From Lytechinus variegatus (Eukaryota > Echinodermata > Echinoidea > Temnopleuroida > Toxopneustidae): a stretch of DNA of 64,000 nt. Made by a program: the position numbers and the translations under genes. The notes under the pieces were generated by a model. It saw nothing but the letters and a program-made list of their open reading frames with translations. It did no database searches and was not told the DNA's origin. Every line of letters starts with the position of its first letter. Position 1 is the first letter of the stretch. The DNA is taken from positions 10,642,124 to 10,706,123 of the forward strand of contig NC_054755.1 of NCBI RefSeq assembly GCF_018143015.1, given 5' to 3'. Shown here piece by piece: positions 36,601 to 46,480 of this stretch.

Positions 36601-39600
36601 GACTTTACGAAAACAAGTGCAATTTTGTTTCATTTTCGCGCACTGTCTTTGCGTATTTTGAGCTGTGCAGCTGTGACTGTGCAAAGTGTGCTTGTATATG
36701 CACGGACAGCAGGCACTCTCGGCCCAGGAATAGTGTACGTCGGCGAGGCAGTCACGGTGGAGGAAACTGGTCCCGGAATTCCAAGCAATAATAAAATGAT
36801 AATCAATAAAACAAAATCTGCAGTAGATTACTTTATTCTAGTTATATATTTTTGTAATATCATTCGATAGTCAAGAATACATGTTTCATATAAATAAATA
36901 TCTCAATCACGATTTTATTCAGAGTAGGCCTATAAACCCGGAGCTGTGTTTTCTTTTTCTCTCCACAGATAGGCTACATAATTATTGCATATGATTCAGG
37001 ATTATGGTCGGACATTCTGAAGTTTTATTAGTGGCATGCTTAGACAAAATAATGAATCTAAACAAAATGAGAATAGATGAAAGTATGTTGAGAGTAAAAT
37101 AAGTTAAAAAAAAAAAAAATAAATGAGGAAGGTGATCTGTAAGAGAAGTGACTGAATGCGATGAAATTTGAAGATATAAATGTTGAAATAAGATATTTTA
37201 ATCAAAAGAATGAAATATATATAATTTATATGAATTAAATATCCATCATCTGCTAAGTTTCAGACAAAATAAAATTACAGAGAGGTTGGACAGATATAGG
37301 GCTTAATTCACGGGGTCATAAAATGTTTTTTTCCTGCTGGTTTATATTTCACCCCCCTCCCCCGTAACAGAGCTTGTATGATCAAACTCAAAAGCCGCCG
37401 GCTTGCAAAAAAAGGACTATATATTTCCCCCAAAATAACAAAAACTAGCTAAATTTATGCGGAGATAATATGGTCTACATCATGATTCTCATGAATACTC
37501 TTTAATGGAAAAATATTTCTGATCGCCGACGCACTCTTTTCTTTTTTTTCGATCAGCATTGACCCGCAATCACCGTCTCACTTTTCCCAAAAATCTTCCC
37601 AAGTTTAGCCCCAGAAAACTTCGAAAATACGGTGAGTATTGAGTTTATATTTTCACTGGGCAATCGTGATACAAAGATTGTTCTATTAACCCAAATTCAA
37701 GTATCCAAAATAATTTAAATACGAAGAAATCAGCCTTTTAAAAAAGCCTGGATTTTGAGTGACACTACACAAAACATATGGCGTTGTACATGTTATATAT
37801 GGCTTCCCGAAAGCCGATTCCGCGTTTGCCCCCTTTCGCATCCCGTGATCCTCTGCGATGACCAGTAGAGGCTCTGGTCCGTAAACGGGGATCGTCTTCA
37901 TATATGGGGATCGTCCTAGTTTACAAGGACTGATGTGAGGATATAGCTCAGTTTTGATCTAAGTCACGATTACTGTCCTTGTAAACTGGGACAAGCATCC
38001 CTAAACTGAGACAAACCTTGAATATAGAGACTGTCCCCAAAAATGAAGACGCTCGATTGTGCGCTGAAAATTACGGATCAGTTGTCTTGGTAAACAAGGA
38101 CACAAAGCCGTAAACTGAGACAGTCTCGATTTTCACGGATGGTCTCTGTTTTCTGAGACGGCGATGCCCGAGTCCCCTTTATTCACCACAAGTGTCTGCT
38201 TAAATGAAGACGCTGGCTTCAGAATTGAGACAGTCTCAATTTTCTGGTAAAGTCCTTGTTTTCTGGGACATTTTCACCTCCGAGGCAGATAGTACATGCC
38301 CATGTACTGACTTTTGTGTACTATGATTTCAATGTGTAGTGAATGCGTGTACATGTGCCATTGTTAGTTTGCTTGCTATTTGTGCATTGGCATTGCGTTT
38401 CACATACAAAGGATCGGAAGGCTGATCGAGGAAAATCGAAATTTGATTTCTTCTTTTTCTTTTATTTTAGTGATAGATCCATTCAGACAATTTTGTTCCC
38501 ATAACAAGGTGAGTAGACATTGATATTTCATAGTAAATGATACTAAAATGATATTTTAGGGTACTGGTAGTAGTATTTGAAAGCATACTGACAATGACTG
38601 AAAAAATTGTATTGACCATCATGCTTGGAATAGAGCCTGTTGTAGTGATGAACCAGACAAGTAGGGGGCCTATGGGCCTACCGTTGTATGAAATTTTCAG
38701 GAAATGTATCAAAATTCATGCCTTGGATATGGATCTATGTGATATAAAACTATTAAAATAAGTATGTCCTCTACGCGTCATGCCGGCGTCATGCAATCTT
38801 CATGGGGGGGGGGAAGAGGGGGTCCCATGCCCTTAAATTTGAGGTGGGGGCGGACCCCCTAAATTTTTTTAATGTTTTTTTTTCGCTTGTCCAAATTTTT
38901 TACCTGTGTCCATCCCAAAATTTCAGGTGGTTCCCCCTAAATTTTTTGGCTCCCGCCGCCAATGGCAATTTGTGTCTTGATATGGGAAAATTAATTTAAA
39001 CTTATAATTGCTGTTCACTCTAATAAAAAACACCTTTTAATACACTGCGATGACTAAATCAGCCCTTCTCTATCGCTAATATTTGAAATTAATATATGTG
39101 TTAGCTCTCACCCGTGTCATCCATTATTTGTGGTTGCATACTTCAATATTCAAATTCATTCAATTTTATTTTGATCTTGATAAAAAGATTTACTTTTCCC
39201 CATGTGGCATTTTACTCTTTCAGACTCAAAATGCCTAAATTGCGTTTGCAGCATCATTCCCGCCACCAATCACGTGACAAAGGGAAATATATGAGGAAAT
39301 GTGGAAGCGTATGCCATGATGACAATGAAAACTTTGACTTTTTATGGGAAGTTGCTACGGGATCTAAGACACATTTGAAAAGGCTGTCCTCAGAGGCAAA
39401 GGAAATTCTTATTGACAGAGGACACATTAAGAAATGGACTAAATACATATGTGACAGTTGTGTTTCAAAGGGAACACAGCAAGATCAATGTCATAACTAT
39501 ACTGATCAAGAACCAAGTAACAGTTGTCAAAATGAAACTGAAGTAGAAAACAAAAATGCAGACACATTATTTGATGAAAACACATTTGAGAAAATGTGTG

Positions 39601-46480: not shown

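Follow-up and report, generated by a model that had tools for sequence, protein, structure and literature searches.

The described systems closest in plan to the element reported here are the RAG-like (RAGL) transposons, which are of the Transib type. According to the parts of PMC4411706 and PMC7204232 consulted, these carry a RAG1-like gene (RAG1L) and a RAG2-like gene encoding a Kelch-PHD protein (RAG2L), and are flanked by 5-bp duplications. The parts of PMC7204232 concerned also describe the two genes as convergent, and give protostome consensus ends of the CACT type (CACTWMCAAA...). A wider group, the CMCT clade, has mostly CA..TG ends, duplications of 2-5 bp, and, in the part of the enzyme that separates the second D from the E, a C(2)C plus an H(3-4)H, as stated in the sections of PMC12730594 consulted; among these, section 3.1.2 reports 5-bp target site duplications (TSDs) for hAT5 elements.

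We analysed a stretch of 64,000 nucleotides from the sea urchin Lytechinus variegatus, called the window below, and found in it an intact two-gene DNA transposon at 37863-46041. Its terminal inverted repeats (TIRs), 37863-37899 and 46005-46041, match at 36 of 37 bp, and the similarity reaches 49 bp at 90% when extended. The features of the element are the following, in window coordinates.

37858..37862, no strand: left TSD, ATGAC (flank comparison)
37863..37899, plus strand: left TIR, 37 bp, similarity running on to 37911 (inverted-repeat arm I1)
37879..37888, no strand: CArG-like box CC-GTAAAC-GG, positions 17-26 of the left end (box scan)
39231..41312, plus strand: gene A exon 1, 694 codons (splice model and alignment)
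41508..41711, plus strand: gene A exon 2, conserved block with D724 and E728 (splice model and alignment)
41822..42356, plus strand: two 241-nt repeats in gene A intron 2, 99% alike and 294 nt apart (direct repeat D1)
42629..43153, minus strand: gene B exon 6, containing the stop; it encodes the C-terminal half of the MADS domain, then a linker and the C-terminal PHD finger (splice model and Pfam)
43209..43748, plus strand: gene A exon 3, which contains the stop codon and is nested in gene B's final intron (splice models)
43812..43900, minus strand: gene B exon 5, N-terminal half of the MADS domain (splice model and Pfam)
44012..44071, minus strand: gene B exon 4 (splice model)
44431..44472, minus strand: gene B exon 3 (splice model)
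44833..44958, minus strand: gene B exon 2 (splice model)
45690..45753, minus strand: gene B exon 1 (splice model)
46005..46041, minus strand: right TIR, 37 bp, similarity running on to 45993 (inverted-repeat arm I1)
46016..46025, no strand: CArG-like box CC-GTTTAC-GG (plus-strand reading), positions 17-26 of the right end (box scan)
46042..46046, no strand: right TSD, ATGAC (flank comparison)

Gene A lies on the plus strand, with three coding exons for a protein of 941 aa; gene B lies on the minus strand, with six exons between 45753 and 42629 for a protein of 301 aa. Both have GT..AG introns and no internal stop, in predicted gene models whose splice sites were placed by eye from the genomic sequence. 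The genes are interlocked, because the final intron of gene B houses exon 3 of gene A. An earlier note on this DNA had described 37-bp inverted termini with one mismatch, a perfect ATGAC duplication of 5 bp and two intact converging spliced genes, and all three descriptions hold. An Rfam scan of 37000-47000 gave nothing at the gathering score.

Further copies were sought in the genome (869.6 Mb in 33 contigs; loci are labelled below by contig, as C1, C4, C15 and so on). Protein A gave 34 matches at 12 places, counting the window, and protein B gave 10 matches at five of the A places, namely the window, two places on C15, one on C4 and one on C5. With the left 98-bp terminal sequence of the window as query, in a search that omits very common words, the element's own two ends were the sole matches. 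Two further full copies, C15:28914822-28922664 and C4:47924674-47933313, possess both ends and both genes, so that three full copies sit on three contigs. The ends of the C15 and C4 copies are CAGTAGAGGCGC, and their TSDs are exact, 5 bp long and different from that of the window (ATGTT and TTCAT). The earlier note had proposed that copies with other 5-bp duplications and the same two genes would speak for a new family, and the C15 and C4 copies are of precisely this kind. In all three full copies the last exon of B lies on the opposite strand, in the interval that separates exon 2 of A from exon 3 (for C4, as judged from match positions).

The C15 copy has open reading frames for both proteins, 920 aa for A and 312 aa for B; A exon 2 ends at a weak donor site (GTCTTG). 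In the C4 copy, the A coding region is disturbed by a 160-bp insertion and several indels, and the B matches are split over two frames. The C15 and C4 elements are 97-98% alike in DNA, and from this likeness the transposon family was probably mobile in the recent past. The window element is far more distant: its proteins share 48% (A) and 35% (B) identity with those of C15 over aligned codons, and the DNA alignment is limited to two short patches, both within A exon 1. Between window and C15, pS and pN were 0.82 and 0.36 for A, and 0.74 and 0.46 for B, pS being saturated in both genes; judged from these codon comparisons, both coding sequences evolve under protein constraint. Between C15 and C4, differences in A by codon position 1, 2 and 3 amounted to 9, 7 and 18 of about 925 sites each, and 47 of 5,041 sites differed in other DNA; these changes are too few to say much about selection.

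The remaining places are less complete. C15:23212681-23217579 is a decayed relative with remains of both genes, the order of the pieces being kept according to match positions (23212681-23216369). It has one right end, flanked by TTGAT, and no left end was found in the 5.5 kb upstream. On C5, short A and B fragments share one strand and are separated by about 4 kb, an arrangement unlike that of the full copies. At the more distant A loci of C6 and C12 (898563), about 5 kb of sequence on each side contained no convincing inverted ends, and an end-motif scan of the stretches around the A matches of C10 (two places), C1, C12 (31.8 Mb), C3 and C5 gave no paired hit.

The ends are also found on short non-autonomous copies (MITEs) of about 440 bp. 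The left end of the C15 copy as query gave 45 MITE matches (40 of 533 first-look candidates were scored), and a MITE as query gave 72 (40 of 984 candidates scored), their first ends being 93-100% identical. Both searches combined cover at least 75 different places, and the numbers of unscored candidates suggest a MITE family size in the hundreds. Thirty MITE stretches (L056-L085) were inspected, and both ends were present in 22. These 22 had an exact 5-bp TSD in 19 cases, including one in a C run that is little informative (L072) and one adjoining another copy (L081); one mismatch was seen in 2 cases, and two mismatches in 1. As a control, mismatched pairs of left and right flanks agreed in 4 of 462 combinations. 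L066 and L071 have common flanks and therefore represent one insertion, which brings the exact TSDs to 18 of 21. Of the 19 exact TSDs, 15 have a pyrimidine at position 2 and 16 have a purine at position 4, which amounts to a weak, symmetric target preference. The shared ends are not due to chance, because two further full copies and the MITE family have them too. The element belongs to a genuine TIR DNA transposon family of sea urchins, probably one of the cut-and-paste kind.

We then examined protein A. Its exon 1 encodes an N-terminal Cys/His site (C24, H29, C74, C77), D267, a zinc ribbon (C382/C385/C396/C399), D484 and a zinc site (C501/C504/H517), and also H542-E544 and H584-H585. D267, D484, C501, C504 and H517 are invariant in all 16 aligned A sequences, and E728 in the 6 of 6 that reach that position. 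Other acids are equally invariant (E196, D364 and E544, each 15 of 15; E601, 13 of 13; D724, 6 of 6), so that singling out D267, D484 and E728 is a choice by position and motif. Read from their order and surroundings, these three form a candidate DDE triad. The "DDE-like" enzyme of the earlier note is retained as far as its conserved residues go; the basis for the name is residues and not structure.

In Pfam, protein A of the window matched no transposase family at E≤1. The same was true of 14 A-family members (alignment A2: 12 relatives plus window exons 1 and 2), with no named transposase family among 25 of the 28 families listed for them. This agrees with the earlier note, which could point to no described superfamily with this combination of termini, target length and genes. 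For the window protein, DUF6589 (25.4 bits) and the zinc-ribbon family DUF7577 (24.1 bits) stayed under their cut-offs of 27 and 28. Matches to FANCI_S1 and ATP-cone, weak, below cut-off and outside the conserved core, were rejected. Compared with solved structures, the A profile found no transposase; six weak matches (E 0.17-3.2) fell at the zinc sites. Relatives of A were also sought in viral contigs and prokaryote genomes, where 33 and 47 pattern stretches, respectively, yielded no confirmed case.

DUF6589 (PF20231) was matched at E≤1 by 10 of the 14 A-family members, at best with 2.9e-8. It also stands in the precomputed domain list of the A relative P0007; for P0004 the score was 22.8, under the cut-off of 27. 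A search of the genome with PF20231 gave 25 matches, none of them at any of the 12 gene-A places, and A is therefore a remote DUF6589 relative at most. Ten of the 25 matches lie in frames of 1172-1802 aa. When the A profile was aligned with a DUF6589 protein of 1784 aa (L090, 42.3 bits), hhalign returned an E of 5.5e-5 and a probability of 66%; the alignment pairs the W-x-IP-x-x-G-x-x-H block and the D724/E728-NK block, and E728 is paired with an acid, D267 and D484 are not. Pfam assigns no function to DUF6589 proteins.

L090 (G000:C8:13435001-13445000) and L091 (G000:C8:32860208-32870207) are 10-kb stretches that are 99.84% identical end to end, and since they are alike throughout, no element boundaries can be defined. 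Both contain the 1784-aa frame, which besides DUF6589 has a weak CXC match (20.1 against a cut-off of 23.5), as well as a frame of 370 aa that weakly matches GDSL lipases. They may belong to a larger mobile element or stem from a segmental duplication, with ends beyond the stretches.

In protein B, residues 106-153 cover the whole SRF-TF model, and the cut-off of 26 was exceeded by window B (32.4 bits), by C15 B (26.7) and by the B protein of L. pictus (32.4). A MADS-like domain had been announced for the partner gene, and it is thus present in both diverged copies. The PHD finger that had been announced with it stands for the C15 copy, which passes PHD_NSD (27.1, cut-off 23.9), and falls short in the window copy, where PF00628 scored 14.1 bits, below Pfam's 24. 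The sole match of B at E≤0.001 was L. pictus LOC129266752, with 97% identity over 300 aa, and the nearest solved chains were those of MEF2B, MEF2D, MCM1 and SRF (E 0.004-0.03). Like SRF/MEF2-type MADS transcription factors, B matches the SRF-TF domain end to end; unlike them, it is borne by a transposon and fused to a C-terminal PHD finger.

How does this pair of genes relate to RAG? The likeness to ProtoRAG/RAGL, as far as the parts of the sources consulted describe it, lies in the TIRs, the 5-bp TSD, the two convergent genes, a large enzyme in which acids and zinc sites are conserved, and the partner ending in a PHD finger. The analogy in plan drawn earlier is fair as regards the convergent genes, the PHD partner and the 5-bp TSD. 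On the other side, the element ends with CAGTAGAGGC, whose third base is G, whereas the RAGL ends described in those same parts have C (CACT type); B has a MADS domain and no Kelch match; and the two genes of the element are interlocked. RAG1 gave no match in the Pfam scan of window A at E≤1. With hhalign, A reached a probability of 0.6% when compared with a single RAG1-like frame of 270 aa from this genome, and an A-family positive control reached 100%. Pfam scans of window B and C15 B contained no Kelch, and SRF-TF and PHD-type matches were found instead. That the element is a distant relative of RAG, one of two options in the earlier note, is thus not supported by the Pfam scan, by the hhalign comparison with one partial frame, by the partner domains or by the third base of the ends, which leaves its other option, a similar plan reached separately. 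We are probably dealing with a two-protein machine that is RAG-like in plan and most likely separate in origin. The genome itself has 12 RAG1-family (PF12940) matches, on C13, C2 and C9, 9 of them with internal stops; one open frame, of 270 aa, lies on C2 (L087).

A different possibility is distant membership in the CMCT/RAG clade (EnSpm-Mirage-Chapaev-Transib-RAG1 and kin), with a MADS/PHD partner having replaced the RAG2-like one. C501 follows D484 by 17 residues, and an H(3-4)H was seen by eye nearby in 6 of the 16 aligned sequences (P0007-P0010, C6, C12); together with CA..TG ends and a 5-bp TSD, the C(2)C fits the description of the clade in the sections of PMC12730594 consulted. However, the window group has a compact zinc site, with H-x2-C rather than H(3-4)H, and the Pfam results given above for window A and, over 25 of 28 families, for the 14 members, which include neither RAG1 nor another transposase family, oppose this placement, as does the 0.6% obtained against the partial RAG1-like frame while the A-family control reached 100%. 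We consider such a membership improbable.

Many hAT ends start with CAG. The element could accordingly be read as an odd hAT transposon of the hAT5 type, with CAG ends and a 5-bp TSD, such TSDs being known from hAT5 in the section of PMC12730594 cited. This reading is very hard to reconcile with the Pfam scans, in which no hAT family was matched by window A at E≤1 or appeared among the 25 of 28 families listed for the 14 members, 10 of these members matching DUF6589 instead; we give it hardly any credence. With respect to CMCT, the agreement lies in the ends, the TSD and the C(2)C, with H(3-4)H seen by eye in six distant sequences, and comes with no sequence match, and for this reason we did not file the element under RAGL, CMCT or hAT.

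A motif in the ends of the element may link them to the MADS domain of B. The CArG box, CC(A/T)6GG, is the binding site of MADS proteins. Both ends of the window element have a CArG-like box at positions 17-26, and at the same positions both ends of C15 and C4 read CC-GATATC-GG; bases 13-14, just outside the box, differ between the window family and the C15/C4 family. Among the MITE ends, 41 of 42 (L071 being left out as a duplicate) have CC-N6-GG at 17-26, where N6 consists of six A/T in 18 (a perfect CC(A/T)6GG), five in 22 and four in 1. Additional MITE boxes occur 36 (25 of 42), 109 (20 of 42) and 55 (14 of 42) from the ends.

Boxes were also counted against shuffled sequence, a box being CC-N6-GG with at least three A/T, a motif and threshold set after inspection of the sequence; so defined, the left 450 bp of C15 hold 7 boxes, a number reached by 0 of 300 shuffles, which averaged 0.49. 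Two MITEs have 5 and 6 boxes against about 1 when shuffled (reached by 1 and 0 of 300 shuffles), and the right 300 bp of the window element have 3 against 0.88 (17 of 300). No enrichment was seen in the left 450 bp of the window element (1 against 0.86), in the right 300 bp of C15 (2 against 0.77), or in the element interiors (window, 11 against 9.12; C15, 7 against 10.29).

The explanation that we consider best, and moderately probable, is a cut-and-paste transposon in which A is the transposase and B a second subunit that reads the element's own ends. On the residues described, D267, D484 and E728 of A would form an RNase-H-like DDE site, fold, catalysis and the choice of E728 being putative, with a zinc site that follows directly on the second D and an E that is preceded by a long insert. 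A would cut at the CAG...CTG ends and join them to target strands 5 bp apart. B would bind as an SRF-type MADS dimer to the CC-N6-GG box that each end has at bases 17-26, and in family 2 (C15/C4) and in the MITEs to the boxes further inward as well. Through a presumed contact with A, it might bring the ends together or load A. Its PHD finger is probably a reader of histone marks, a role by which it may steer the complex or its transcription.

Alternatively, A alone may perform binding, cutting and joining, B being a captured host gene that serves as a transcription regulator only, of the element or of host genes, and the boxes being promoter sites. Transcription regulators typically carry MADS and PHD domains, and other A places, such as C6 and C12, have no B match. 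Moreover, gene B starts 288 bp from the right end, so that the boxes there could be promoter elements. But C6 and C12 have no recognisable ends and thus give no proof of mobility free of B, and the A-B pair is kept in all three copies that have both ends. The box, furthermore, is at a constant distance (17-26) from both ends in each family, gene-less MITEs included. We therefore regard a purely regulatory B as rather unlikely. Against the preferred reading, in which B reads the ends, it can be said that the boxes might serve protein A or a host factor.

A literature search found no description of the element; matches to the letters of the ends were judged by title, and for part of them. The element is thus a candidate new superfamily, undescribed as far as the literature search extends, Repbase and Dfam lying outside this comparison. 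Going further, we tentatively suggest, short of calling it probable, that it may be the founding member of an undescribed DDE superfamily with a DUF6589-like transposase, in which a RAG1/RAG2-like two-subunit recombinase was built independently from a captured SRF-type MADS protein reading CArG boxes in its own ends and a chromatin-reading PHD finger. It would be a second, apparently unrelated, transposon to pair a large DDE-like enzyme with a PHD partner, and the animal group of sea urchins has RAG-like elements too. This raises the question whether second subunits that read chromatin are a general solution or an accident of RAG history. It also suggests a function for DUF6589-like proteins and predicts a testable link between a transposon-encoded MADS protein and the CArG-like boxes in its ends, and box-bearing MITEs could plant MADS sites across the genome.

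As to the insertion site, the element sits at the start of a predicted ATG16-like autophagy gene (15593-46500, minus strand). Pfam matches on the minus strand of the window were ATG16 at 30886-31374 (39.8 bits, cut-off 33.7) and WD40 at 15593-15988 (37.6 bits, cut-off 27). The likely first exon of this gene, placed by eye near 46370-46490, is just to the right of the element, so that the insertion is probably in the first intron. Another transposase frame is present elsewhere in the window: at 21786-22856, on the plus strand, lies an uninterrupted frame of 357 aa of the Tc1/Sleeping Beauty type, in which HTH_SB, HTH_Tnp_Tc3_2 and DDE_3 all exceed their cut-offs.
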